A stretch of 41,515 bases of DNA from Lachnoclostridium sp. An118. GTDB lineage: Bacteria; Bacillota; Clostridia; Lachnospirales; Lachnospiraceae. Under the pieces are notes generated by a model. That model worked only from the letters and a program-made list of their open reading frames with translations. It was not told the origin of the DNA and did no database searches. A program made the position numbers and the translations under genes. Shown piece after piece: positions 13,921 to 41,324 of this stretch (its first letter is position 1; each line of letters starts with the position of its first letter). The stretch is from contig NZ_NFLQ01000024.1 of NCBI RefSeq assembly GCF_002160985.1, positions 1-41,515 on the forward strand, given 5' to 3'.

Positions 13921-14025
13921 CGGATGCTGCTTATGATATATCACTCCGGCGCACTCGGGTGTTCTGTTCTGCGATGACAACGTGCTGCGGAAAACAGAGT
14001 AAAAAGACCGGTCAAATTCCGCAGA

Positions 14026-15129
14026 TCAGCGAAGCTCTGCATATTTTTTCATGACAGCAGGAATGTTGATCCTCTGGGGGCACCTCCTCACACAAGCTCC
14101 GCACTGGAGACAGGCCTCCGGGCCCTTTATCTGAGTCAGCTGGAACAGCTTCCACGGCTCCCCGCCGACAGTAAGTTCATTGTAGCCCTGGATCAGAGCC
14201 GGGATATCCAGATCCGCCGGGCAGACGGGACAGCAGTAGCGGCAGGAGGAACAGGGGACGCCAAAGGAATCCCGGAAAGCATTTACTGCCCTTTCCAGCG
14301 CTGTACGTTCTGCTGCGGAGAGTGCGTTGGACTCCCTGAATACCTCTGCATTCGCACGGACCTCCTGGGGAGAGGACATGCCGCTGAGGACGCACTGCAC
14401 ATTGTCCAGCCCCATCAGATAGCGGAAGGACCAGGAGGGGATTGACTGTCCCGGTGCGGCGGCATGCAGGATGTCCTCCGCCTCCTGGCTTAAGTGTACG
14501 AGGCGGCCGCCCTTCAGAGGCTCCATGACCCAGACCGGGATATTGTGTTCAGCCAGGATCTCGTACTGACGTCTGCCGTCCAGCATTGTCCAGTCCAGGT
14601 AATTGAGCTGGATCAAAGCCATGTCAAAGCCGGGGTGCCACTGAAGGAATTTTTCCAGCCCATCCGGCGCCGCATGGGAAGAAAAGCCGAGATAGCGGAT
14701 CCGGCCGGCCTCCTTCTGTTTGAGCAGGTAGCCTATATAATCCCGCTCCGGATCCATATAGTCGTCGAAAAACTGTTCCTGCACGCTGTGCAGCATGTAA
14801 AAGTCAAAATACTCTGTCCGGCAGCGCGCAAGCTGCTCCTCAAAGACATGGTCCAGATCAGTCCGGGCTCCCACATAAAACTTGGAGGACAGATAGTAGC
14901 TGTCGCGGGGATGGCGGGACAGCGCTTCGCCGAGAAATCTCTCGGAGTCAGTATTGTGGTAGGTGAAGGCAGTATCGAAAAAGTTGATCCCTTCGATGAA
15001 GGCCTGGTCGATCACTTCCATTGCCCCTGTGCGGTCAATGGAGGCTGCGTTTCCGGGCACGGTGGGGAGCCGCAGGCTTCCCAGACCCAGTGCGGAGATC
15101 TTGTTTCCTCTAAACTCTTTATAATACAT
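14026..15129 (-). CDS. Aldo/keto reductase with C-terminal 4Fe-4S ferredoxin domain
   Basis: With the ATG at 15129 (AAAGGAG 10 nt upstream on the minus strand) the product has 367 residues; a frame extension to 15165 is rejected. The first 270 residues or so form an aldo/keto reductase TIM barrel (ISALGLGSLRLP, GINFFDTAFTYHN, the SSKF segment, YLGFSSHA). The end carries cysteine clusters: CSSCRYCCPVC and CLQCGACVRRCPQRINIP, the latter typical of a 4Fe-4S ferredoxin fold. Such fusions are common in anaerobes and are thought to couple NAD(P)H or ferredoxin to an unknown carbonyl substrate. It lies 92 nt downstream of the TetR gene on the same strand and is probably co-transcribed. Confidence 0.88.
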   Translation of the reverse strand: MYYKEFRGNKISALGLGSLRLPTVPGNAASIDRTGAMEVIDQAFIEGINFFDTAFTYHNTDSERFLGEALSRHPRDSYYLSSKFYVGARTDLDHVFEEQLARCRTEYFDFYMLHSVQEQFFDDYMDPERDYIGYLLKQKEAGRIRYLGFSSHAAPDGLEKFLQWHPGFDMALIQLNYLDWTMLDGRRQYEILAEHNIPVWVMEPLKGGRLVHLSQEAEDILHAAAPGQSIPSWSFRYLMGLDNVQCVLSGMSSPQEVRANAEVFRESNALSAAERTALERAVNAFRDSFGVPCSSCRYCCPVCPADLDIPALIQGYNELTVGGEPWKLFQLTQIKGPEACLQCGACVRRCPQRINIPAVMKKYAELR

Positions 15130-15221
15130 GGCAGGACAGCTCCTTTCTGAAAATTGACACATCATGGAAAATATGGAGGCTTCTTTCCTGTGACAGCAGT
15201 CTCTTTAAACCGGGGAAACTT

Positions 15222-15839
15222 TCATGACAGAGGGCTCCTCAAAAAGTTCAACGAGCCCGCCGGATTTTCCGTCCCCTTCTCCAGCAGCAGGATGAGGGCG
15301 TTGATGGTCCGCTCGATGTCCTCCTTTGAGGAGGGGACAAGGGAGTTGTCGAACTTGACTGCCAGGACGATCAGCACGATCTCGGCCAGGCCATCGGGAT
15401 CGCTGAAGTGGATATCTCCTGTCTCCACACCCTGCCGGATGATCTCCGCCAGGACGGGCTTTAGCTCTGTGATGATGTGATTGACGTACTTCTGGCGGAG
15501 GAAGACCTTCTCCTGGGTGTCGGAGCCAGCCCGCTCCTCAGACTTGAGGAACTCGGAGGAGGAGCTGCGGCAGGCCTGGAAGATCATAGCCATCCTGGTG
15601 AAGGGCGAGATTTCCGTCTGGTCTGCCAGGTCCTTCGCGGTCCGGAGAGGCTTCTCGTAATTCCGCTCCACAAGGGCGTCCAGGATAGCGTCCTTGGAGG
15701 GGAAATAGTAGTAGATGCTCCCCTTGCCGATGCCTGCGGTCTGGGCGATGTCGCTGACAGAGATGGTCTGCATTTTCTGATTTTTCAAAAGCTCCTGGAG
15801 AGCGTCCAGGATCCTGTTATATTTCAGTTGATTTGGCAT
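15222..15839 (-). CDS. TetR family transcriptional regulator
   Basis: From the ATG at 15839 (AAAGG about 8 nt upstream) it has 205 residues; a GTG at 15848 is a less likely start. The N-terminal helix-turn-helix is typical (RILDALQELL, then ISVSDIAQTAGIGKGSIYYYFPSKDAILDAL). The C-terminal ligand and dimer domain is divergent and does not reveal the ligand. It is divergent from the SCP2-to-ligase operon and upstream of the aldo/keto reductase gene. The two palindromes at 15989 and 16033 are likely operators, so the ligand could be a fatty acid or acyl compound, an inference from the operon content only. Confidence 0.93.
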   Translation of the reverse strand: MPNQLKYNRILDALQELLKNQKMQTISVSDIAQTAGIGKGSIYYYFPSKDAILDALVERNYEKPLRTAKDLADQTEISPFTRMAMIFQACRSSSSEFLKSEERAGSDTQEKVFLRQKYVNHIITELKPVLAEIIRQGVETGDIHFSDPDGLAEIVLIVLAVKFDNSLVPSSKEDIERTINALILLLEKGTENPAGSLNFLRSPLS

Positions 15840-15899
15840 GTGTGTCACCTTTCCTTCCGGTCCTTCCCGCTGGTATCCGCCTGCATGAATTCAACATAC

Positions 15900-15929
15900 A
15901 ATATACCACAGAACGGGGGTGCGGGCCAA
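15900..15929 (-). promoter_or_regulatory. Candidate promoter of the TetR gene
   Basis: On the minus strand -35 TTGGCC (15929-15924) and -10 TATATT (15905-15900) are 18 bp apart, with a TG one base before the -10. Confidence 0.5.
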
Positions 15930-15986
15930 CTGTAAAAACGCACAAAAAACAGAAAAAACATGGCTGTATTTTGAGGGTAACGATAG

Positions 15987-16043
15987 TTGACCACTGGCCG
16001 AAAAGATGTTACTCTAACAGGGAAAAGGATATGACCGTTGGTC
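15987..16043 (+). promoter_or_regulatory. Promoter and paired TetR-type operators before the SCP2 operon
   Basis: Two related palindromes, GACCACTGGCC (15989-15999) and GACCGTTGGTC (16033-16043), are 44 bp apart, about four helical turns, and both continue with GAAAA. The first overlaps a -35 TTGACC (15987-15992), which has a weak -10 TACTCT at 16010-16015, 17 bp away. A repressor bound here would block transcription of the rightward operon. The divergent TetR is the obvious candidate. Confidence 0.6.
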
Positions 16044-16078
16044 GAAAAAGAGAGAAAACGGTCGAGAAGGAGGATGCT

Positions 16079-16417
16079 ATGACCTACGCAGATATGTTTT
16101 CAAAGGTAAAGGGCATGCTGATGGATGCGGATGTCAGCGATATCCACGAGCATCTGGCATACCAGTTCAACATCACCGGTGAGGCGGAAGGGATCTTTTA
16201 CGCGGAGGTGAAGGACGGGCAGCTCTATGTGGAGCCCTACGAGTATTTTGACAGGGACGCCATGTTTACCTGCTCCGCGGAGACACTGTTCAAGATCGCG
16301 GACAGAAAGACGGACCCCATCCTTGCGGTGACGCTTGGAAAACTGAAGGTGGAAGGCAATATCGATAAAGCTATAAAACTGAAGGATCTGATCAACAGCA
16401 AGAAGAAAAGCAGGTGA
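16079..16417 (+). CDS. SCP2 sterol-binding domain protein
   Basis: This 112-residue protein starts at the ATG at 16079 with GAAGGAGG directly upstream. Open frame before it to 15833 includes the operator region and is not coding. The sequence resembles a minimal SCP2/sterol carrier domain: AYQFNITGEAEGIFYAEVKDGQ, then DAMFTCSAETLFKIADRKTDP, and AVTLGKLKVEGNIDKAIKL. SCP2 domains hold fatty acyl or other lipids in a hydrophobic tunnel. As first gene of the ligase/carrier/condensation operon, it may present or shuttle the fatty acyl substrate or product; that role is inference. Confidence 0.85.
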   Translation: MTYADMFSKVKGMLMDADVSDIHEHLAYQFNITGEAEGIFYAEVKDGQLYVEPYEYFDRDAMFTCSAETLFKIADRKTDPILAVTLGKLKVEGNIDKAIKLKDLINSKKKSR

Positions 16418-16422
16418 GAAGA

Positions 16423-17367
16423 ATGGGCAGATTACTGAAAGGGGCGGCCCTGCTCCTGGGGGCCGCGGCCGCGGCGGAAGCCGGCGGGACAGCTTACTTC
16501 TACAGAAGGACCATGAAGAGATACAACGCAAAGGTGGAGCGCACCATAAAGATGTCCGGCGTGGACTGGGAGAGCCATTTTCCCTTCATGCATGAGCGCA
16601 GCGACTGGATGATGGCGCAGCCCCACGAGGACGTGTGGATCCGGTCCAAGGACGGGCTGAAGCTGCACGGTACATATTTTCCGGGGAACGGGGGGACAAA
16701 GGCTGTCATCTGTTTCCACGGGTACACCAGCAAGGGGCTGAACGACTATGGAAGTCTTTCTTATTACTATCTGGATCACGGCTTCCGGATGCTCCTCATC
16801 GATGAGAGAGCCCACGGCGACAGCGAAGGCACCTACATCGGATTTGGCACCATGGACCGGCTGGACGGACTGGAATGGGTCAGATGGATGATCGAAAAGA
16901 CCGGCGATGACGCCCAGATCCTGCTCCACGGAAACTCCATGGGAGGCGCCACCGTCTGCATGATGGGCGGCATGGACCTTCCGCGGCAGGTGAAGGGTAT
17001 CGTGTCCGACTGCGCCTTCACATCCGCCAGGGACGTGTTTACTCATGTGCTCCACAGCATGTACCACCTGCCGGCGTTTCCCATGATTCAGATCGCGGAC
17101 AGGGTAAACCGGAAAAAGGCGGGCTACGGCCTGGACGACTGCAATGCGGCCAGGGAAGTGAGAAAGGCAAAGGTGCCCTTCCTCTTCATCCACGGGGATG
17201 AGGATATCTTCGTACCCTGCTGGATGTGCGAGGAAATCTATAAGAACTGCGCGTCGCCCAAGACAAAGCTGATCGTCAAGGGTGCGGGCCACGGAGAGAG
17301 CTACTATAAAGATACCAAGGCGTACGAGGAGGCCCTGGATGTATTTATCGGAGGAATAATGAAATGA
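16423..17367 (+). CDS. Membrane-anchored alpha/beta hydrolase
   Basis: This 314-residue protein has an N-terminal hydrophobic segment (about 7-28) that looks like a signal anchor, then an alpha/beta hydrolase fold. The oxyanion region is CFHGYTSKG, the nucleophile elbow is GNSMGG with Ser172, the acid is probably in FIHGDEDIFVP, and the catalytic His lies in GAGHGESYY. Related proteins are often labelled BAAT- or acetylxylan-esterase-like hydrolases. It starts 5 nt after the SCP2 stop and overlaps the next gene by 4 nt (ATGA). In this operon it could cleave an acyl carrier thioester, a lipid or the amide product. Confidence 0.86.
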   Translation: MGRLLKGAALLLGAAAAAEAGGTAYFYRRTMKRYNAKVERTIKMSGVDWESHFPFMHERSDWMMAQPHEDVWIRSKDGLKLHGTYFPGNGGTKAVICFHGYTSKGLNDYGSLSYYYLDHGFRMLLIDERAHGDSEGTYIGFGTMDRLDGLEWVRWMIEKTGDDAQILLHGNSMGGATVCMMGGMDLPRQVKGIVSDCAFTSARDVFTHVLHSMYHLPAFPMIQIADRVNRKKAGYGLDDCNAAREVRKAKVPFLFIHGDEDIFVPCWMCEEIYKNCASPKTKLIVKGAGHGESYYKDTKAYEEALDVFIGGIMK

Positions 17368-18770
17368 TGAGAACAAGAAAAGGTCACAAAGTGTATCCGC
17401 TGACTGTAGCCCAGAAATTCCACATGTACTATGCGCCCCACTGCCCCAGCATGGCGGTGCTGAATATCGGGACAAGCCTGACCATCGAGGTGGAGCTTGA
17501 CTGGGAACAGCTGAAGAAGTCCATCAACGAGGCCTACGCAAGGAGCGAGGCCATGCGCGTCCGCTTTGCCAGGGATAAAGAGGGGACCTGGTATCAGTAT
17601 GTGACGGACCCGGAGGAGATGGATATCGAGTTCGCGGATTTCTCCGGCGGGACTGTGGAGGAGGCGGAGGCCCAGATGCAGCAGTGGACCACCGTGCCCT
17701 TCAAGATGTTTGACTCTCCCCTGACAAGGATCGTCATGATCAGGATGCCGGACGGATTTAACGGCGTGTACTTCCTTGGTAACCACATGATCGTGGACGC
17801 CCAGTCCCTCATCTGCTTCCTGAAGGATATCATCGAGCTGTACTGCAGCGCCAAGTACGAGGGCGTTCCCTACCCTAAGGATATGGCCTCCTACATTGAG
17901 CAGATCGAGAGGGATTTCGCCTACGAGGCGGGCAGCAGGGCGCAGCAAAGAGACAGCGAGTATTTCCAGAAGGAGATCGAGAAGTCCGAGCCCATCTACA
18001 ATGACCTCCACGGCACGGCCAAGCTGGAGTCCATGAGGGAGAGGTTTAAAAATCCAGAGCTTCGGTCCGCCTTCTGCGTCACCGACGACACAACCTCCGC
18101 CCTGGATATCTTCCACCTGGAGGCAGAGCCCACAAAGAGGCTGATGGATTTCTGCGAGAAATACCACGTGTCCCTGGCATGCCTGCTCCTCATGGGACTT
18201 CGCACCTACTACCAGAAAATGAACGGATCTGAGGATGTGTCCCTGACCACCACTATCGCAAGGAGGGCCACCCTGAAGGAGAAGAAGTCCGGCGGCACCA
18301 GGATCCACTCCTTCCCCTTCCGGACCATTTTCCCGGAGGACATGAAATTTATCGACGGCGTATACGCCATCCGGGACAAACAGAACGAGTACTTCCGCCA
18401 CGCGAATTACGACCCCACAGCCTACTTTGCCTACCGGGCCAAGACCTATCCCCAGCCCCAGGCGGGACTGGGCTACGAGCCCATCTCCCTGACCTACCAG
18501 CCGCTGACCCTGAAGGAGAAGGGACTGGACCAGCTGGGAGACATCCGGTACAAGACGAAATGGTACCCCAACGGCATCTGTCCCCAGGGCATGTACCTGA
18601 CTGTCATGCACCGTCCGGAGGACAACGGGCTGGACTTCAACTTTGAACACCAGATCAAGGCAGTGTCAAAGGAGGAGCTGGAGTACCTGTACTACTATCT
18701 GTGCCGTATCATGTTCAAGGGAGCGGAGAACCCGGACCTGACCATCGGCGAGATCATCAAATTAGTTTAG
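17364..18770 (+). CDS. Free-standing NRPS-type condensation domain protein
   Basis: This 468-residue protein matches the chloramphenicol-acetyltransferase-like condensation fold in its parts: an N-terminal YPLTVAQKFHMYY segment, a core motif at 140-146 reading NHMIVDA where canonical domains have HHxxxDG, and a later DFNFEHQIKAVSKEELE segment. The second, catalytic His (His141) and the Asp (Asp145) are kept; the first His is Asn140 and the Gly is Ala146. It has no adenylation or carrier domain, so it must work in trans with the carrier at 18792 and ligase at 19055. The likely reaction is amide formation between a carrier-bound acyl group and a free amine. ATGA overlap couples it to the hydrolase gene. 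Confidence 0.85.
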   Translation: MMRTRKGHKVYPLTVAQKFHMYYAPHCPSMAVLNIGTSLTIEVELDWEQLKKSINEAYARSEAMRVRFARDKEGTWYQYVTDPEEMDIEFADFSGGTVEEAEAQMQQWTTVPFKMFDSPLTRIVMIRMPDGFNGVYFLGNHMIVDAQSLICFLKDIIELYCSAKYEGVPYPKDMASYIEQIERDFAYEAGSRAQQRDSEYFQKEIEKSEPIYNDLHGTAKLESMRERFKNPELRSAFCVTDDTTSALDIFHLEAEPTKRLMDFCEKYHVSLACLLLMGLRTYYQKMNGSEDVSLTTTIARRATLKEKKSGGTRIHSFPFRTIFPEDMKFIDGVYAIRDKQNEYFRHANYDPTAYFAYRAKTYPQPQAGLGYEPISLTYQPLTLKEKGLDQLGDIRYKTKWYPNGICPQGMYLTVMHRPEDNGLDFNFEHQIKAVSKEELEYLYYYLCRIMFKGAENPDLTIGEIIKLV

Positions 18771-18791
18771 TGTAGAAAAAGGAGAAGGACC

Positions 18792-19025
18792 ATGTTTGAG
18801 AAATTAGTTGATATCATCTGTAACTATGTGGAGGTGGAGCCAAAGGACATCCATCCGGGATCACGCTTTATGGAGGACCTTGGCTTTACGTCCTTTGACT
18901 TCATGAGCATGCTGGGCGAGATAGAGGACGAGTTCGACGTGGAAGTGGAGCAGACAGAGGCCGCAAACATCCGCACCGTGCAGGAGGCTGTGGACTATCT
19001 GGAAAAGCTGACCGCTGAAAATTGA
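18792..19025 (+). CDS. Acyl or peptidyl carrier protein
   Basis: This 77-residue acidic helical protein is the size of a stand-alone ACP. Ser34 in DLGFTSFDFMSML is the expected 4'-phosphopantetheine attachment site. The usual Asp before the Ser is Thr33, so it differs from the housekeeping DSL-type carrier. AAGGAGAAGG precedes the ATG. It lies between the condensation and ligase genes, which fits a dedicated thiolation protein that receives the acyl group from the ligase. Confidence 0.9.
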   Translation: MFEKLVDIICNYVEVEPKDIHPGSRFMEDLGFTSFDFMSMLGEIEDEFDVEVEQTEAANIRTVQEAVDYLEKLTAEN

Positions 19026-19054
19026 TCTGAAAGCAGAAGAAAGGGTGGGAAGAT

Positions 19055-20563
19055 ATGCTTTGCAGTACTGTCCGTGAGATACTGGCAGGTACGGAAGAAA
19101 AGTACGGGCCAAAGGACGCGATACGCTATAAAGTGAGTAAAAATGAAATTGTATCGAAAACCTACACACAGCTAAAGGAGGACAGCGAGAGCTTCTCCTG
19201 CGCCCTCAGAGACCTGGGAGAGCAGGGAAGCCACATCGCGGTCATCGGCATGACCTCCTACGAGTGGCTGGTGGCCTACTTTGGCACTGTGGACAGCGGC
19301 AGCGTGGTGGTGCCCCTGGACGTGAACCTGCCGGCGGAGGACGTGTGCGACCTGATCAGCCGGTCGGACTCCACGGTGCTCGTCTGCGATGAGGTGAGAA
19401 AAGACGTGGCCGCCATGGCGAAGGAGAAATGCCCTCAGCTTCGCAGCATTATCTCCATGCAGAAGGAGGATCACGACGAGCAGGCCTCCGCCTTCTGGAA
19501 GCTGCTTGAGGAGCACAGGGGGAGCTTTGACTATGAGCCCCGGCCGGACCAGCTCTGCACCATCATGTTCACCTCAGGCACCACGGGAAAGAGCAAGGGT
19601 GTCATGCTGACCCACAGGAATGTGGCGGAGAACGCCACCTGCCTGGACATGAAGATCCCGGAGCGGATCGTCATCATGACCGTGCTCCCCATCCACCACG
19701 CCTACTGTCTCAGCATGGATATCCTGAAGGGCGTGTCCCTGGCGGCGGTGATCTGCATCAATGACTCCCTCATGCGGGTGGCCAAGAACATCAAGCTCTT
19801 TAAGCCGGAGATGATCCTGATGGTCCCCCTGATGATCGAGACCATGGCAAAGAAGCTGGAGGAGGCCTCCCTACTGCCGGCGAAGATCGTGAAGAACCAG
19901 GTGTTCGGAAAGCAGTTCCACACCATCTGCAGCGGCGGCGCCTACCTGGACCCCAAATACATCGACATGTTCAAGAAGTATGACATTGTCATCCAGCAGG
20001 GCTACGGTATGACCGAGTGCTCCCCTGTCATCAGCATCTCCCAGAGGTGGAACATCCGCAGCGACTCCGTGGGACAGCTTGTGCCCAACTGCCAGGCGAA
20101 GACAGTGGACGGAGAGCTCTGGGTGAAGGGCAGCAGCGTCATGCAGGGCTACTACAAGATGCCCCAGGAGACGGCGGAGACCCTGGAGGACGGCTGGCTG
20201 AAGACCGGCGATCTGGGCTATGTGGACGAGGAGGGCTTTGTCTACCTGACAGGCCGCAAGAAAAACCTCATCATCACAAAGAACGGGGAGAACGTGTCCC
20301 CGGAGGAACTGGAAAATGCCCTCAGCGGGAACCGCCTTGTGGGTGAGGTGCTCGTCCGTGAGAAGGGCGGCGTCATCGAGGCAGAGATCTATCCGGACCA
20401 GGACTACGTGAAAAAGAAGAGGGTGAAGGACGTGAGGGCGGCCCTCCAGGAGGTCATCGATGAGTACAACAGGACGGCGGCTTCCCAGAAGAAGATCTAC
20501 AGCCTCGTCGTCCGGGACAAGGAATTTGAGAAGACCACGACGAGAAAGATAAAGAGATTTTAA
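19055..20563 (+). CDS. AMP-dependent acyl ligase (fatty acyl-AMP/CoA ligase family)
   Basis: This 502-residue ANL-superfamily enzyme shows the phosphate loop TSGTTGKSKG (173-182), the GYGMTE motif (316-321), the TGDLGYVDEEGF and GRKKNLIITKNGENVSPEELE hinge region, and a C-terminal Lys in TTRKIKRF. It should adenylate a carboxylic acid, probably a fatty acid, and load it on the carrier encoded just upstream. Likeness is to long-chain acyl-CoA synthetases more than to amino-acid adenylation domains, but chain-length preference cannot be read from sequence. It is the last gene of the operon. The next promoter begins 4 nt after its stop. Confidence 0.92.
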   Translation: MLCSTVREILAGTEEKYGPKDAIRYKVSKNEIVSKTYTQLKEDSESFSCALRDLGEQGSHIAVIGMTSYEWLVAYFGTVDSGSVVVPLDVNLPAEDVCDLISRSDSTVLVCDEVRKDVAAMAKEKCPQLRSIISMQKEDHDEQASAFWKLLEEHRGSFDYEPRPDQLCTIMFTSGTTGKSKGVMLTHRNVAENATCLDMKIPERIVIMTVLPIHHAYCLSMDILKGVSLAAVICINDSLMRVAKNIKLFKPEMILMVPLMIETMAKKLEEASLLPAKIVKNQVFGKQFHTICSGGAYLDPKYIDMFKKYDIVIQQGYGMTECSPVISISQRWNIRSDSVGQLVPNCQAKTVDGELWVKGSSVMQGYYKMPQETAETLEDGWLKTGDLGYVDEEGFVYLTGRKKNLIITKNGENVSPEELENALSGNRLVGEVLVREKGGVIEAEIYPDQDYVKKKRVKDVRAALQEVIDEYNRTAASQKKIYSLVVRDKEFEKTTTRKIKRF

Positions 20564-20566
20564 TGG

Positions 20567-20595
20567 TTGACAGATTTTTTGAAACATGTTATTTT
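20567..20595 (+). promoter_or_regulatory. Promoter of the M-box transcript
   Basis: -35 TTGACA (20567-20572) and -10 TATTTT (20590-20595) are 17 bp apart, with TG at 20587-20588 (extended -10). The -35 lies immediately after the ligase stop codon. Confidence 0.7.
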
Positions 20596-20599
20596 TTAG

Positions 20600-20747
20600 C
20601 TGTTCGGTAGGTAAGGCTACTGCAAGGGATATGGACTGTTGCCGCGAAATAGTGGAGACACTATGAGAGGGTTTGAACAGGGTGCATCGACAGCAAGGTG
20701 TACCATAATACAGTTTCACCGCCCTGCAGAGTTAAAGCTCATACGAA
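20600..20747 (+). promoter_or_regulatory. M-box (ykoK leader) magnesium riboswitch
   Basis: Conserved M-box segments occur in order: GGTAGGTAAGGCTACT (from 20606), ATATGGACTGTTGCCGC, GGTGCATCGAC with AAGGTG, CACCGCCCTGC and the closing AGTTAAAGCTCATACGA. They match the ykoK/mgtE leader consensus as I remember it. The element senses Mg2+ and represses Mg2+ transporter expression through the terminator just downstream. Here the downstream gene is only an MgtA fragment. Confidence 0.88.
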
Positions 20748-20766
20748 TATGCGAAAGGTATGCTTT

Positions 20767-20799
20767 CCCTGTATGTTCACCGGACATACAGGGTTTTTT
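20767..20799 (+). terminator. Riboswitch expression-platform terminator
   Basis: A perfect 10-bp stem, CCCTGTATGT (20767-20776) with ACATACAGGG (20784-20793), is followed by six T. It lies directly after the M-box core, where the regulatory terminator is expected. Confidence 0.88.
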
Positions 20800-20996
20800 A
20801 TTCTGCCGGAGGCTTTTGGAGGAGCCGGGCGGGAGAAAAGGTGCATGAAAGAAAATGCGGAGGACGAAAGGAAGGTGGGCACACTTATGTATCACAGTAG
20901 CAGCAGCGGAAGTGCAAAGCGGTGTCGGGCAGAGCGTGGATCTCTGCTGCGGAGGCATGGGTGTGCCGGTCCGTAGCTTTATTTCTGCATGCTTTT

Positions 20997-24068: not shown

Positions 24069-25079
24069 ATGGATCTTGACAGGACAAGATGGGTGCAGGA
24101 TATGATCTGCCAGGGCAGGAAAAGGCCTCTTCCGGTGCTTTCCTTTCCGGGCATCCAGATTACGGGACACACGGTGGAGGAGACAGTAAGGAGCGGAAAT
24201 CTGCAGGCGGAGTGCATGAAGGCGGTTGCGGACAGATTTGACATGGCAGCCGTGCTGGGGCTGATGGACCTGTCCGTGGAGGCGGAGGCTTTCGGAAGTC
24301 CGGTGCGCTACAGCAGCCAGGAGGTACCTACTGTGACGGCAGCCATCATCCAGGAGGAAGAAGAGGCGGAGGCACTGCAGGTGCCGGAAGTGGGGGCAGG
24401 CAGGACCGGGGAGTGCCTGGAAGGCATCCGGAAGATTGCAGAAGTGACAGAGGACAGGCCTGTATTTGCAGGCATGATCGGCCCCTACTCCCTGGCCGGA
24501 CGGCTTCTGGACATGACAGAGATCATGATCCTCTGCTACGAGGAGCCGGAGATGGTGGAGACGGTGCTGGAGAAGGTGACAGGATTTCTCTGCGATTACG
24601 CCAGAGCTTTTAAGGAGGCAGGAGCCCACGGCATTGTCATGGCAGAACCGGCAGCCGGACTTCTCTCCCCGGGGCTTTTCAGAGAGTTCTCTGTGCCGTA
24701 TGTGAAAAGGATCTGCCAGGCGGCAGAGGAGGCAGGGCTTGTGATGATCTATCACAACTGCGGCATGGTGGAACCCCTTCTTGGGGACATCGCAGATATC
24801 CCGGCACACGGATACAGTTTCGGGAACGCGGTGAATATGGAGACGGTGCTGAAGCAGATGCCGGCAGACAGGCTGGTGCTTGGAAACATCGATCCGGTGG
24901 GGATCCTGCGCAGCGGCACACCGGAGGCAGTAAAACATGCCGTGACAGAGCTTCTGGAAACCTGTGGGAAATATGACAACTTCCTGCTCTCCAGCGGATG
25001 TGATATCCCGCCGGTGACACCCCTTGAGAACCTGCAGGCATTTTTTGATGCGGCAGAAACATTTTATGGGAAAGCGTAA
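24069..25079 (+). CDS. UroD-family methyltransferase, MtaA-like
   Basis: This 336-residue protein has the uroporphyrinogen decarboxylase fold used by methylcobamide methyltransferases such as MtaA/MtbA. The Zn triad expected for a thiol-methylating enzyme is present: His229 and Cys231 in YHNCG and Cys311 in SSGCDIPP. Real haem-pathway UroD lacks this pattern. Neighbouring corrinoid protein and activator genes agree. In methanogens this class passes methyl from the corrinoid to coenzyme M. In acetogenic Clostridia the final acceptor is usually tetrahydrofolate through another protein family, so the acceptor here is open. AAAGGAG lies upstream. Confidence 0.86.
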   Translation: MDLDRTRWVQDMICQGRKRPLPVLSFPGIQITGHTVEETVRSGNLQAECMKAVADRFDMAAVLGLMDLSVEAEAFGSPVRYSSQEVPTVTAAIIQEEEEAEALQVPEVGAGRTGECLEGIRKIAEVTEDRPVFAGMIGPYSLAGRLLDMTEIMILCYEEPEMVETVLEKVTGFLCDYARAFKEAGAHGIVMAEPAAGLLSPGLFREFSVPYVKRICQAAEEAGLVMIYHNCGMVEPLLGDIADIPAHGYSFGNAVNMETVLKQMPADRLVLGNIDPVGILRSGTPEAVKHAVTELLETCGKYDNFLLSSGCDIPPVTPLENLQAFFDAAETFYGKA

Positions 25080-25110
25080 GAGGGTATAGAACAGAGAGGA
25101 GAATAAAGAG

Positions 25111-25758
25111 ATGGAACTTTTACAGGAAATGTCGGAACTTCTGCAGAAAGGAAAGGCCAAGAAAGTGAAGGCGCTGGTGCAGCAGGCACTGGACGAGGGA
25201 GTGGACCCGAAAGAGATCTTAAACGAGGGACTGCTCTCGGGCATGATGATCATTGGGGGAAAATTTAAGAACAACGAGGTGTTCGTGCCGGAGGTGCTGG
25301 TGGCTGCCCGTGCCATGAACGCCGGGCTCTCCATCCTGGAGCCAAAGCTGGTGGAGGTCGGAAATGAACCGGTAGGCCGGGCTGTCATTGGAACTGTCCA
25401 GGGAGATCTGCACGATATCGGCAAAAATCTGGTCTGCATGATGTTCAAGGGGGCCGGATTTGAAGTCTGTGATCTGGGCGTGGACGTCAGCTCAGACGCC
25501 TTTATTGACAAGGCGGAGGAGATGTACGCGGACGTCATCGGTATGTCAGCCCTTTTAAGTACCACCATGTGTCAGATGCAGGCCTGCATTGACCGTCTGA
25601 AAGAGCGGGGACTTCGGGAAAAGTATATTGTCATGATCGGCGGCGCCCCTGTCACAGATGACTTTGCCCGGCAGATCGGGGCGGACTACTACACGCCGGA
25701 TGCGGCTTCTGCGGCAGAGACAGCCAGAAGCGTGGTCCTGGAAAAGAAGAGTGCGTAA
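25111..25758 (+). CDS. Corrinoid protein (MtaC/MtbC-like B12-binding)
   Basis: This 215-residue protein has an N-terminal helical cap (about 1-88, with GKAKKVKALVQQALDEGVDPKEILNEGL) and a Rossmann B12-binding domain. The cobalt lower-ligand motif DLHDIGKN is at 99-106, with His101 as ligand, followed by GFEVCDLGVDV and the GGAPV loop. It carries the methyl group between the two methyltransferases of the operon. Length is typical of MtaC/MtbC/MttC. Its stop overlaps the next start (TAATG). Confidence 0.95.
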   Translation: MELLQEMSELLQKGKAKKVKALVQQALDEGVDPKEILNEGLLSGMMIIGGKFKNNEVFVPEVLVAARAMNAGLSILEPKLVEVGNEPVGRAVIGTVQGDLHDIGKNLVCMMFKGAGFEVCDLGVDVSSDAFIDKAEEMYADVIGMSALLSTTMCQMQACIDRLKERGLREKYIVMIGGAPVTDDFARQIGADYYTPDAASAAETARSVVLEKKSA

Positions 25759-27956
25759 TGCGGTACACGGATTTTCACATCAGTATTTCAGCTGAGGAGG
25801 TCTGCCGTCTGCTGGACGGGCACAAAAGCACTCTTGGCGGGGAACTGGCAGAAGAGCTGGAAGAGATGCTCCCGGAAGCCTTTGAGCGGTTGGAGCCGCA
25901 GGCGTTTCTGGGGGTGGGGGACACGGAAGGCGTCCTTTATGAGGAAGAGGCAGAAGAAGGCCAGGAGGCCCTGTACGTCATCACCACAGTGGGGGAAGCG
26001 CTCAGCGGCTGGTCCGGGGAGCTTTTCAGAGAGGGCGACTGTGTGAAGGCCATGCTGGCAGATGCCATTGCGGATCACTGTCTCTTTCAGATGGACCGGC
26101 AGCTTCGGGAGCCTATCCTGGGGCTGTGCAGGCAGCAGGGCCTGGGGATCAGACGGCGGCTGGAGGCGCCCCAGGACGCTCCCATGGTGATCCAGAGGAA
26201 AGCTCTCCAGGTCTCCGGCGCCGGAGAGGGGGGCATGGAGATCACGGAAGGTCTTATGTACCGGCCGGTAAAAAGCGCCTGCCAGGTCTTTCTCCTTACA
26301 AGAGACAGGGATCAGTTTTTCTGGGAACATGACTGCAGCGGATGTCCCGACACTTCCTGTCGGATGCGAAAGGGCCGTCCCCCTGTTCTTGAGGTGGAGA
26401 CAGTGGACAGGGACGGACAAAAGAGAAGACGGATCAGAGGCCATGTGCAGGCAGGACAGAGTATTCTGGAGACGCTGCGGGCGTGGGGGATTTATCTGGA
26501 TGTCCCCTGCGGCGGGAGAGGCACCTGCGGGAAGTGCCGGATCCGCCTTGTAAAGGGTGAGCTGGCCGTGACAGAGGCGGACCGGAGCCATTTCTCTGAA
26601 GAAGAGCTGAAAAATGGTATGCGCCTGGCCTGCAGGGCCCACCCTGCGGGAGATTGCGTGATCCGGCTTAAGGAAGCCCGGGAGGATGCCTTCTATATTC
26701 CCGGCAGCCGGGAAAAAGCCGGGGAGGAAAGTCTGGAACTTAAGAGCGCAGGAAAGGCCGGCAGGAAAGGCGTGACTGTCGATATCGGAACCACCACTGT
26801 GGCCATGGAGCTGGCGGACCTGGAGACGGGGGAGAGGCCCCGGATCTACACGTCTCTTAACACCCAGCGGCAGTACGGGGCGGACGTTATCAGCCGGATC
26901 CAGGCGGCGGACGAGGGAAAGGCAAAGGAGATACAGACCTGTATCCGGGATGTCCTGCGGGAAGGACTGGCCCGTCTCACGGATGGCGGGAAGGAACATA
27001 TAGACCGGATGGTCATCGGAGCCAACACCACCATGGTCCATCTGCTGATGGGATACCCCTGTCATTCCCTGGGAGTCTATCCCTTTACGCCCTGCTCCAC
27101 AGAGCGGATAGACACAGACGGGCAGGCGCTGCTGGGGGAGGCGGCGGAGGACTTTGACGTGTCCGTTTTCCCGGGGGTGTCGGCCTACATCGGAGGGGAC
27201 ATCACTGCCGGCCTCTATGCCCTGGATTTCCACAGAAAAGAGGAAGTCAGCGTTCTTGTGGACCTGGGGACCAACGGGGAGATGGCGGTTGGAAATAAGG
27301 ACCGGATCCTGGCAGCCTCCGCAGCCGCGGGCCCAGCCTTTGAGGGAGGCAATATCATCTGCGGCACCGGAAGCATACCGGGGGCCATCTGCGGCGCCCG
27401 GTGGAACGGACAGCAGATGGAGCTTCAGACCATCGGCGGCGGAGCACCTGTGGGGATCTGCGGCACCGGGATCATCGAGGCTGTGTACGAGATGATGGAA
27501 GCCGGGATCTTGGATGAGACCGGGCGGCTGGAAGAGCCCTGGGATGAGGAGGGATTTCCCCTGGATGGGGAGGGAAAGATACGGATCTTCCAGAAAGATA
27601 TCCGGGAGATCCAGCTTGCCAAGGCGGCGGTGCGGGCCGGACTTGAGACTCTCCTTGCCGCATACGGCGTGGAGGCCCGGGATGTGGATACGTTCTACAT
27701 TGCCGGGGGATTTGGCTGCCAGCTTGATATAGAGAAGGCAGCAGGCATCGGACTTCTGCCCCAGGACTGTGTGGGAAAAGCCCGCCCTGCGGGAAATACG
27801 TCCCTTGAAGGGGCGCTGCGGTATCTGAGAGAGGCGGACGGAGGGGCCGCTGTGGATGAGATTGCCGGCAAGGTCCGGGAGATCGCGCTGTCCACAGACC
27901 GGAACTTCCAGCAGCTTTATATGGAATATATGTACTTCGGGGAAGACGAAGAATAA
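25758..27956 (+). CDS. Corrinoid reductive activator: MetH-activation-like, 2Fe-2S and RACo ASKHA domains
   Basis: This 732-residue protein combines three parts. Residues 1 to about 210 resemble the free-standing MetH-activation-like fold (ITTVGEALSGW, the RPVKSACQVFLL segment) and end in a cysteine cluster C193-x2-C196-x4-C201. Residues about 215-310 are a ferredoxin with plant-type 2Fe-2S ligands C251, C257, C260 and C292. From about 337 comes the RACo-type ATPase (DUF4445) with VDIGTTTVA, VDLGTNGEMAVG, the AAGPAFEGGNI segment and IAGGFGCQL. RACo proteins use ATP to re-reduce Co(II) to Co(I) in corrinoid proteins. The coupled start with the corrinoid gene supports this target. Ordinary RACo lacks the first part. 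Confidence 0.88.
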   Translation: MRYTDFHISISAEEVCRLLDGHKSTLGGELAEELEEMLPEAFERLEPQAFLGVGDTEGVLYEEEAEEGQEALYVITTVGEALSGWSGELFREGDCVKAMLADAIADHCLFQMDRQLREPILGLCRQQGLGIRRRLEAPQDAPMVIQRKALQVSGAGEGGMEITEGLMYRPVKSACQVFLLTRDRDQFFWEHDCSGCPDTSCRMRKGRPPVLEVETVDRDGQKRRRIRGHVQAGQSILETLRAWGIYLDVPCGGRGTCGKCRIRLVKGELAVTEADRSHFSEEELKNGMRLACRAHPAGDCVIRLKEAREDAFYIPGSREKAGEESLELKSAGKAGRKGVTVDIGTTTVAMELADLETGERPRIYTSLNTQRQYGADVISRIQAADEGKAKEIQTCIRDVLREGLARLTDGGKEHIDRMVIGANTTMVHLLMGYPCHSLGVYPFTPCSTERIDTDGQALLGEAAEDFDVSVFPGVSAYIGGDITAGLYALDFHRKEEVSVLVDLGTNGEMAVGNKDRILAASAAAGPAFEGGNIICGTGSIPGAICGARWNGQQMELQTIGGGAPVGICGTGIIEAVYEMMEAGILDETGRLEEPWDEEGFPLDGEGKIRIFQKDIREIQLAKAAVRAGLETLLAAYGVEARDVDTFYIAGGFGCQLDIEKAAGIGLLPQDCVGKARPAGNTSLEGALRYLREADGGAAVDEIAGKVREIALSTDRNFQQLYMEYMYFGEDEE

Positions 27957-39571: not shown

Positions 39572-39707
39572 ACAGATGACATCCGGCAGGAAGCCGGGAT
39601 GCGGCGGCAGAAGCCCCGGAGGTATCAGAGGCACAGCGCACAGGAAAGCGCCTGCCTGCAGCCAGTGTGAAATAAATCCAGCGTAAGATGAGACAGATTT
39701 GAAATGG

Positions 39708-39753
39708 ATACCAGGAAGGTATCTGCACTCAGAAGAGAGGCAGGTGCCTTTTT
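39708..39753 (+). promoter_or_regulatory. Candidate transcription attenuator before larE
   Basis: A 9-bp terminator stem with two G-U pairs (39718-39726 with 39740-39748) is followed by five T (39749-39753). Its 5' arm can instead pair with GATACC (39708-39713) as GATACC/GGTATC, excluding the terminator. A GC-rich hairpin lies at about 39580-39601. The pair of exclusive folds suggests regulated readthrough from DUF3842 into larE. It could also be a simple terminator. Confidence 0.5.
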
Positions 39754-39788
39754 ATTTTGCTATTTTTCAAAAAGACAGGAGAGATGAT

Positions 39789-40553
39789 ATGACTTTGGAA
39801 ACATTTTTCAGGGAAGTGCCCCGGGCGGCCGTGGCCTTCTCGGGGGGAACGGACTCAGCCTTCCTCCTGTGGGCGGCAAAAAAATACGGCTGCCAGATAC
39901 AGGCCTACTATATACATACTGCCTTCCAGCCCGAGTTTGAGCTGGAGGATGCCAGGAGGCTGGCAGGAGAGCTGGATATCCCCATGCAGGTGATAGACAT
40001 GGATATCCTGGGCGTGCAGCAGGCGGCAGAAAACGGCCCCAGGCGGTGCTACTACTGTAAAAGGGCTCTTTTTACGAGGCTGAAGGAGCAGGCGGCAGAG
40101 GACGGGTATACGGTCCTGCTGGACGGCACCAACGCCTCCGACGACGCCGGGGACCGGCCGGGCATGCGGGCCCTGCGGGAGCTGCAGGTGCGCTCCCCCC
40201 TGCGGGAGTGCGGCATCACAAAGGATAGGGTGCGCAGCCTTTCCAGGGAGGCAGGACTTTTCACCTGGGAGAAGCCGGCCTACGCCTGTCTGGCTACCAG
40301 GATCCCGACAGGGACAAAGATCACCCGGGGGGACCTCCAGAGGGCAGAGCAGGCGGAGATGGCTCTCATGGCGCTGGGATTTCAAGACTTCCGGGTGAGA
40401 CTCTCCCGCGAGGGGGCCCGGCTTCAGATGACCGGGGATCAGATGTCCCTGGCCGTGGAGAGAAGAAATGACATCATGCAGGCGCTGAAGCCCCTTTTCC
40501 CGGCTGTGTTCCTTGACCTGGAAGAGCGGAGTCCGTCTGTGCAGAGGAGGTAG
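39789..40553 (+). CDS. larE: Nickel-pincer cofactor sulfur transferase LarE
   Basis: From the ATG at 39789 (AGGAGAG upstream) it has 254 residues; the frame extension to 39699 crosses the terminator hairpin and is rejected. It has the PP-loop ATPase motif SGGTDSAFLL near residue 19, DGTNASDD near residue 114, and the LarE segments SPLRECGITKDRVR and RIPTGTKIT. LarE adenylates the nicotinate-derived P2CMN made by LarB and inserts sulfur. Three cysteines, Cys87 and Cys90 (RRCYYCK) and Cys167 (YACLATR), fit the cluster-binding LarE type rather than the single-Cys sacrificial type. larB follows after 6 nt. Confidence 0.92.
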   Translation: MTLETFFREVPRAAVAFSGGTDSAFLLWAAKKYGCQIQAYYIHTAFQPEFELEDARRLAGELDIPMQVIDMDILGVQQAAENGPRRCYYCKRALFTRLKEQAAEDGYTVLLDGTNASDDAGDRPGMRALRELQVRSPLRECGITKDRVRSLSREAGLFTWEKPAYACLATRIPTGTKITRGDLQRAEQAEMALMALGFQDFRVRLSREGARLQMTGDQMSLAVERRNDIMQALKPLFPAVFLDLEERSPSVQRR

Positions 40554-40559
40554 ACAAAA

Positions 40560-41324
40560 ATGGATAATAAACAGGATATACTTGCGCTGCTCCGGAGCGT
40601 GGCCCAGGGGGAGACTTCCCCGGAGGACGCCCTTCTGTCTCTGAAGGAGGAGCCCTTTGAGGATTTGGACTACGCCAAGATTGATTTCCACCGCAGCGTC
40701 CGGCAGGGGGCGGCGGAGGTCATCTACGGTGCCGGGAAGACGCCGGAGCAGATCATCGGCATTGTGAAGACCATGGGAGAGAGAGGATGCCGCAACATCC
40801 TCGTCACAAGGGTCGGACAGGAGGCGGCAGACGAGCTGGCGGCAGTGGTCCCGGTGGACTATCACCCCATTCCCGGACTGGCCATCGCCTTTCCGGAAGA
40901 GCGGCCCGGGAGAGGCAATATCGTAGTGGCCACAGGGGGGACCAGCGACATGGCTGTGGCTGAGGAGGCGGCCCTCACGGCGGAGGCCATGGGAAATCAG
41001 GTGACCCGGCTCTATGACGTGGGCGTGGCAGGCCTTCACCGGCTCCTCTCCAACCTGGATGTGCTCATGAGCGCCCGCTGCGTGGTGGCGGTGGCCGGTA
41101 TGGAGGGGGCCCTGGCCTCGGTGGTGGGCGGCCTGGTGGACTGCCCCGTGATCGCCGTGCCCACCAGTGTGGGGTACGGAGCCAGCTTTGGAGGACTGTC
41201 AGCCCTTCTGTCCATGCTGAACTCCTGCGCGTCCGGGTGCAGCGTGGTGAATATTGACAATGGATTTGGAGCCGGCTATCTGGCCAGCAGGATCAACCAG
41301 ATGGAAGGCATAAAGTCCAGCTAA
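40560..41324 (+). CDS. larB: Nickel-pincer cofactor synthase LarB (NaAD carboxylase/hydrolase)
   Basis: This 254-residue protein has a helical N-terminus followed by a PurE-like domain. Recognisable segments are VIYGAGKTPEQIIGI, VATGGTSDMAVAEEAALTAEAMG, VTRLYDVGVAGLHRLL, and VAVAGMEGALASVVGGLVDCPVIAVPTSVGYGASFGGLSALLSMLNSCA, where I identify it confidently by order and spacing. LarB carboxylates nicotinic acid adenine dinucleotide and cleaves its phosphoanhydride, the first step to the nickel-pincer nucleotide. larE precedes it by 6 nt. larC, the nickel insertase, is not visible in the 190 nt that remain. Confidence 0.95.
   Translation: MDNKQDILALLRSVAQGETSPEDALLSLKEEPFEDLDYAKIDFHRSVRQGAAEVIYGAGKTPEQIIGIVKTMGERGCRNILVTRVGQEAADELAAVVPVDYHPIPGLAIAFPEERPGRGNIVVATGGTSDMAVAEEAALTAEAMGNQVTRLYDVGVAGLHRLLSNLDVLMSARCVVAVAGMEGALASVVGGLVDCPVIAVPTSVGYGASFGGLSALLSMLNSCASGCSVVNIDNGFGAGYLASRINQMEGIKSS

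Follow-up and report, generated by a model that had tools for sequence, protein, structure and literature searches.

The window analysed here, a stretch of 41,515 nucleotides from Lachnoclostridium sp. An118 (contig NZ_NFLQ01000024.1), carries at positions 16079-20563 what is probably a C-T-A operon for the synthesis of fatty-acid amides, in which a free-standing condensation protein (C), an acyl carrier protein (T) and an acyl-AMP ligase (A) are encoded by separate genes. The operon would represent a distinct subclade of that kind, accompanied by three accessory genes that code for an SCP2-domain lipid carrier, an anchored serine hydrolase and a TetR-family regulator. A first-pass annotation of this DNA had described SCP2, hydrolase, C, T and A as one TetR-controlled operon resembling the fatty-acid-amide synthesis of gut Clostridia, and had suggested a condensation-domain tree as a check. 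All five genes were recovered where it had placed them, and all six Pfam matches of the region (Table 1) exceed their curated cut-offs (for SCP2, 47.3 bits against 21.3).

The best match of C in the Protein Data Bank (PDB) is 12KH, the condensation protein OaaC of Coprococcus eutactus, which aligns with residues 8-467 of 468 at 38.8% identity (E 5e-108); the second-best match, a multidomain nonribosomal peptide synthetase (NRPS), follows at E 4.5e-10. A tree of 74 rows was built with an outgroup of eight C domains from five multidomain NRPS loci and rooted at the midpoint. In it the C proteins of C-T-A loci, OaaC and the window protein form one group (66 of the 74 rows, support 100/99) apart from the eight NRPS domains. 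Inside this group the OaaC clade (17 rows, 100/100) and the window clade (39 rows, 98/92) are separate subclades, and L124, counted as an OaaC-type locus, sits outside the OaaC clade. Owing to the midpoint root and to long-branch warnings for L124, L214 and the NRPS rows, we make no claim about the precise order of branching. The match to 12KH and the separation of the C-T-A group from the NRPS domains thus support the earlier interpretation at the level of sequence, OaaC being the characterized system compared. The annotation had named polyketide or teichoic-acid kinship as the contrary outcome; such kinship was looked for among the Pfam, NCBIfam and PDB matches and in the C tree, and none appeared. 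On these same grounds polyketide, teichoic-acid and multidomain NRPS kinship were all rejected as candidates.

By its place in the tree, the window C belongs to a sister subclade of OaaC, found across many Lachnospiraceae genera, and is no copy of OaaC. Like OaaC, OaaACP and OaaA, the C. eutactus system that makes oleoyl aminovaleric acid, the window system has free-standing C, T and A, and the two C proteins can be aligned end to end with the active-site His and Asp kept. The systems differ in their motif. In the window subclade it reads xHxxxDA, with the second-position His, the Asp and the last Ala present in 108/108 rows, some of them duplicates (L056/L152 and L063/L064 are alike); the first position is D in 43 rows, H in 29, N in 22, Q in 13 and S in one. 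The OaaC-type rows, mostly DHRxxDS, have the His and Asp in 15/15 and S at the last position in 14/15. The published motif is (D/H)HxxxDS, its last position being S in 42%, A in 36% and G in 17% (PMC13142362), and the 36% Ala suggests that members of the present subclade may already be in that set as unassayed sequences.

The organization of the locus was compared among relatives. A scan of genome contigs gave 147 relatives of C, the best 80 of which were kept as named loci, many of them from chicken-gut Mediterraneibacter and Blautia; 66 of these have enough flanking sequence. The order reversed TetR, SCP2, hydrolase, C, T, A recurs exactly in 63 of the 66, so the arrangement is not due to chance, and the single operon proposed earlier is borne out. 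Counted gene by gene, the hydrolase, T and A are found at all 66 loci and SCP2 and TetR at 65 each, the regulator being divergent in 64, on the same strand in one and absent from one. Separate C, T and A genes follow one another in that order within one operon, as in published acyl-amine operons (PMC13060934), with gaps of 21 bases between C and T and 29 bases between T and A. Of two overlaps claimed earlier, that of hydrolase and C is clear, four bases (ATGA) being shared at 17364-17367. The other, between SCP2 and hydrolase, requires a GTG start at 16414 (four-base overlap); the ATG at 16423 gives a five-base gap, and in a start comparison that considered ATG only its equivalent was found at the same place in relatives including L043, L054, L058 and L068. 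A terminator scan gave five terminator-like sites against a shuffle mean of 4.9, and the notable feature is the long 12-bp stem of the site listed in Table 1, not the count. The ratio of nonsynonymous to synonymous substitution (dN/dS), taken against L037 and L068, is 0.02-0.09 for the six genes and indicates strong purifying selection. Claveliimonas monacensis (L036) shares 95.5% DNA identity with positions 14001-20811, and a search of the An118 genome itself gave one match to C.

In wider samples, in both of which the own genome was counted, matches to C (E <=1e-3) came from 6 of the 11 genomes of the genus and from 60 of the 250 of the family. Among these 60, a member of the window subclade (51-100% identity) occurs in 25 and an OaaC-type C (33-38%) in 14, G159 having both; the other 22 match weakly, mostly in long NRPS frames. 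One further genus sample of eight genomes yielded three with any match to C and one with a subclade member, at 72% identity, and of 391 genomes sampled across the class, 20 match C at E 1e-40. At 24 loci re-fetched from the genus and family samples, SCP2 was found 22 times, the hydrolase 24, T 23, A 24 and TetR 19 times; two of these loci, L152 and L153, seem to duplicate the named L056 and L078. Outside the subclade the picture is narrower. At 13 class-search loci (L206-L218) T and A were found 12 times and the hydrolase six times, with neither SCP2 nor TetR (L212 has 660 bases upstream of C, and L215 ends at C), and at 14 OaaC-type loci (L116-L129) T and A are present at 12 and the hydrolase at five, four on the same strand and one reversed. 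The hydrolase thus occurs at OaaC-type and class loci that have no SCP2, and is the wider of the two in these operons. The C. eutactus locus itself was sought in 397 family genomes, none of which has a protein above 57% identity to OaaC (best 57%), so that its own neighbours were unseen for comparison with the SCP2, hydrolase and TetR genes of the window.

Some loci depart from the usual form. L122 and L123 (genomes G056 and G159) have an OaaC-type C with no T or A found nearby, and pair together in the C tree. At L149:6203-9426, SCP2, hydrolase, a shortened C and ligase were found and no carrier gene, apparently an operon losing parts. Behind the operon of L087 lie two further ligase-like frames on the opposite strand, which stand together in the ligase tree.

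Regulation by TetR, which had been assumed in the first-pass annotation, is supported by two predicted operator-like palindromes of the form YGACCNNYGGYCGAAAA that precede SCP2. At no more than one mismatch the 3.47 Mb genome contains this pattern at these two places only, and the reversed pattern, as control, at 11. There being no third site, a large TetR regulon was rejected as far as close matches are concerned, and the protein looks like a local, self-regulating repressor. Within 450 bases upstream of SCP2, a looser version of the pattern was found in 72 of 78 named operon loci, the window included (of 81 loci, one was too short and two have no SCP2), and in 17 of 22 re-fetched operons. 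As the looser pattern was read off these same loci, such counts are descriptive, and the uniqueness of the pair in the genome is the more independent test. No match to the looser pattern preceded the hydrolase at 12 loci lacking SCP2, or C at 18 loci of OaaC type or from the class search; at L108 two operator-like sites before the hydrolase were recognized by eye. Against a fatty-acid regulator model TetR scored 40.6 bits where the cut-off is 200, a weak likeness that is no evidence of the ligand.

We infer every chemical step, the kind of amine and acyl chain, what SCP2 and the hydrolase do, and the binding and ligand of TetR as follows. By kinship with OaaC, A would activate a free fatty acid as acyl-AMP and load the phosphopantetheine arm of T, and C would join the T-bound acyl group to a freely diffusing small amine and release an N-acyl amide. 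OaaC, an occluded homodimer opened by holo-T, makes amides in vitro together with OaaA and OaaACP from several acyl chains (PMC13142362), and Blautia and Coprococcus isolates positive for a C-T-A (CTA) operon were reported, in the available part of the source, to have higher amide levels (PMC13060934); amide synthesis is therefore the likeliest function. T lies nearest to acyl carrier protein models, slightly below their cut-offs. The best NCBIfam match of A is a long-chain-fatty-acid-CoA ligase subfamily, at 255 bits below the cut-off of 476, and in the ligase tree A is placed with other C-T-A ligases on a weak separating branch (74/96). The anchored hydrolase would most likely act on lipid esters of the membrane or the diet to free fatty acids, and less likely trim products. 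Its Ser172, Asp261 and His290 (numbered from ATG 16423) are invariant in 38/38 aligned sequences; its AlphaFold model has a mean predicted local distance difference test (pLDDT) score of 90, with lower confidence for the N-terminal helix 2-31, and resembles, among many others, the esterase Pf2001, the thioesterase DcsB and monoglyceride lipases. SCP2 would most likely carry the fatty acid or amide, both hydrophobic, back and forth between the cytosol and the membrane, and TetR would bind both palindromes and repress the operon and itself until released by a lipid ligand.

Several points weigh against the reading of the whole as an amide synthase operon with these accessory functions. At the 14 OaaC-type loci neither SCP2 nor TetR was found, the sequence upstream of C being short in L121 (398 bases) and L129 (1721 bases). 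L108 is an operon with TetR and operator-like sites and no SCP2, L133, L144 and L206 have hydrolase, C, T and A without an adjacent SCP2, and none of the 20 stretches with SCP2 that were taken from elsewhere than C loci (L186-L205) holds a C gene. The first residue of the window motif, NHMIVDA, falls outside the published D/H, and the general fold matches of the hydrolase are too many to name its substrate, an attempt that was given up. No assay of any enzyme of the window subclade was found in the open-licence literature.

The relation of SCP2 to the synthase deserves closer attention in light of these points. By domain (PF02036) and by fold the protein is a member of the SCP2 family; its AlphaFold model (pLDDT 88) matches SCP2 structures including 1pz4, which has a bound C16 fatty acid, and is also like SCP2-like domains of alkylsulfatases. 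Relatives of SCP2 occur in 59 of the 250 family genomes, in 25/25 of those with a subclade C and 34/225 of those without, and the gene adjoins the subclade C in 23 of the 25 (exceptions G032 and G039). In one Blautia genus (that of G038) the 12 genomes out of 20 that have C are also those that have SCP2; two of these 12 have weak NRPS matches to C in addition. Away from C, the SCP2 gene stands without listed partners in L186, L187, L188, L190, L192 and L193 and with TetR in L189, L191 and L195; in L187 the upstream contig end is within 250 bases and in L195 the sequence stops 551 bases past SCP2, so that partners may be cut off in these two. Since there are SCP2 stretches with no C gene, SCP2 must have some use of its own. 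The looser operator pattern is present at three of the 20 solo SCP2 loci (L189, L191 and L194), which are three of the four with TetR there, L195 being the fourth. Solo copies are interspersed with operon copies in the SCP2 tree, where only 10 of 53 inner branches have good support; L194, for example, stands beside L135 (97/87). It appears that SCP2 and its regulator also exist independently, and that either the synthase is more easily lost than SCP2 or it was joined to SCP2. The idea that synthesis always requires SCP2 was rejected, with solo SCP2 in L186-L195 and synthesis without adjacent SCP2 in L108, L133, L144 and L206. A carrier role is suggested by analogy with mammalian SCP-2, cited as a potential carrier of anandamide in the available parts of two sources (PMC5447297, PMC6527687). 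L194:6613-8525 is a locus with TetR, an operator-like site, SCP2 and ligase fragments, where hydrolase, C and T were not found, and it reads as a decayed operon.

The SCP2 gene also leads to work on cholesterol. In Blautia hominis HA2291 the SCP2-like RS03310 was reported among 29 genes up in cholesterol; the refolded protein bound cholesterol, NAD-dependent oxidation of cholesterol was claimed for it, and its predicted partner was RS03300, a condensation-domain protein (PMC13029680; this and what follows on RS03310 is limited to the available part of that source). Eleven pocket residues are listed by number there. Among 178 pattern matches, duplicates included, L178 has 11/11 of them, the next best 9 and 8, and the window SCP2 four by count. 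The 5.1 Mb genome of L178, of the same Blautia genus as G038, holds the C locus L164, where SCP2, hydrolase, T and A lie around C and SCP2 and C are ~1.3 kb apart, a spacing consistent with the tag numbers RS03310 and RS03300 if a single gene separates them. The pocket match and the place near C make RS03310 very probably an orthologue of the window SCP2. The cited work gives its identity to rabbit SCP2 (1C44) as 63% (PMC13029680), and the window SCP2 scores only 22.5 bits against 1C44 by sequence, with 27% identity in structural alignment.

If this link is taken at face value, the locus might be a sterol-linked lipid response, in which cholesterol or a co-delivered lipid would derepress TetR, SCP2 would bind the sterol, C-T-A would acylate a sterol-derived or other lipid acceptor to an ester or amide, and the hydrolase would reverse this. 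The reported induction and binding of RS03310, its predicted partner and the complete pocket in a genome whose C is flanked by SCP2, hydrolase, T and A all agree with such a response. The characterized relative OaaC, however, takes fatty acids and small amines as substrates, fatty acids are also among the ligands of SCP2 folds (PDB 1pz4), the cholesterol binding was seen with refolded protein, and RS03310 was one of 29 genes up, the available text not stating that the rest of the operon rises; we consider this explanation improbable. Returning to amide synthesis, we would only tentatively propose that TetR and SCP2 form a sterol- or lipid-sensing switch coupled to the amide synthase in many gut Lachnospiraceae, so that host cholesterol or bile-delivered lipid would induce receptor-active N-acyl amides; RS03310 would then be the first gene of an amide operon and not a cholesterol enzyme. 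Its published description, as far as the source was available, is that of a cholesterol-oxidizing protein, and fatty-acid amides are unmentioned there (PMC13029680).

The hydrolase allows another explanation, somewhat less probable than the proposed switch and on the whole unlikely, in which it acts as an amidase or esterase that degrades the product of its own operon, the system tuning the amide rather than accumulating it. An enzyme with an intact triad does precede C at all 66 flank-sufficient named loci, all 24 re-fetched loci, 6 of 13 class loci and 4 of 14 OaaC-type loci, yet among the solved structures closest to it in sequence and fold are esterases, a thioesterase and monoglyceride lipases, which equally fit a supply of fatty acids. 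Finally, membership of C in the Condensation family PF00668 would also suit a dispersed NRPS making an acyl-peptide or siderophore-like product. The operon has neither a second carrier nor an amino-acid adenylation domain, T resembles acyl carrier proteins and the tree separates C from the NRPS C domains, so that this explanation, already disfavoured, is very improbable. A canonical multidomain NRPS was rejected outright, as C, A and carrier are here separate, unfused single-domain genes.

Table 1. Features of the predicted amide synthase operon and its promoter region (positions in the window)
Feature	Position	Strand	Basis
TetR-family regulator	15222..15848	-	PF00440 (TetR_N) 47.2 bits, divergent from SCP2
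Predicted TetR operator 1, TGACCACTGGCCGAAAA	15988..16004	.	One of two genome matches at <=1 mismatch
Predicted TetR operator 2, TGACCGTTGGTCGAAAA	16032..16048	.	Other of two genome matches at <=1 mismatch
SCP2-domain lipid carrier, 112 aa	16079..16417	+	PF02036 47.3 bits; AlphaFold model like SCP2 structures
N-terminally anchored alpha/beta serine hydrolase	16423..17367 (alternative GTG start 16414)	+	Pfam Abhydrolase_1 53.9 bits; conserved triad
Free-standing condensation protein C, 468 aa, NHMIVDA at 140-146	17364..18770	+	Condensation PF00668 123.2 bits; 12KH/OaaC match; tree
Acyl carrier protein T, 77 aa, with GFTSFD	18792..19025	+	PP-binding PF00550 47.6 bits
Acyl-AMP ligase A, 502 aa	19055..20563	+	AMP-binding PF00501 213.9 bits
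Intrinsic terminator, 12-bp stem then T6	20767..20793	+	Terminator scan

Elsewhere in the window, a 152-aa frame at 21146-21604 matches only the C-terminal part of a cation-transporting ATPase and is perhaps a remnant or a short paralogue. A consecutive corrinoid methyltransferase set lies at 24069-27956, with a URO-D-type methyltransferase, a B12-binding corrinoid protein and a RACo-type reductive activator. Two frames at 39699-41324 resemble LarE and LarB of the nickel-pincer cofactor pathway.

Operons of the C-T-A kind are already known. That of Blautia wexlerae, reported in 36 Lachnospiraceae species, likewise places T between C and A in a single operon, comes from the same bacterial family, and differs in that no SCP2, hydrolase or regulator is named in the available part of the report (PMC13060934). 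The B. hominis pair shares with the window an SCP2 near a condensation protein, and the listed pocket residues recur among the SCP2 relatives (PMC13029680). The extension by SCP2, hydrolase and TetR, the xHxxxDA subclade and the tie to cholesterol were not found described in the open-licence literature, and the cluster maps of Chang et al. 2021 may already show these genes. The present results define a second subclade of amide-synthase operons in gut bacteria, one that is common and has a carrier, a hydrolase and a local regulator of its own. They also join two lines of work, on the fatty-acid amides of Lachnospiraceae and on the cholesterol response of Blautia, which are otherwise unconnected in the available parts of the papers on either. 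N-acyl amide lipids of such a kind can activate human receptors, and the induction of host-active lipids by these bacteria becomes testable with data that are already public.

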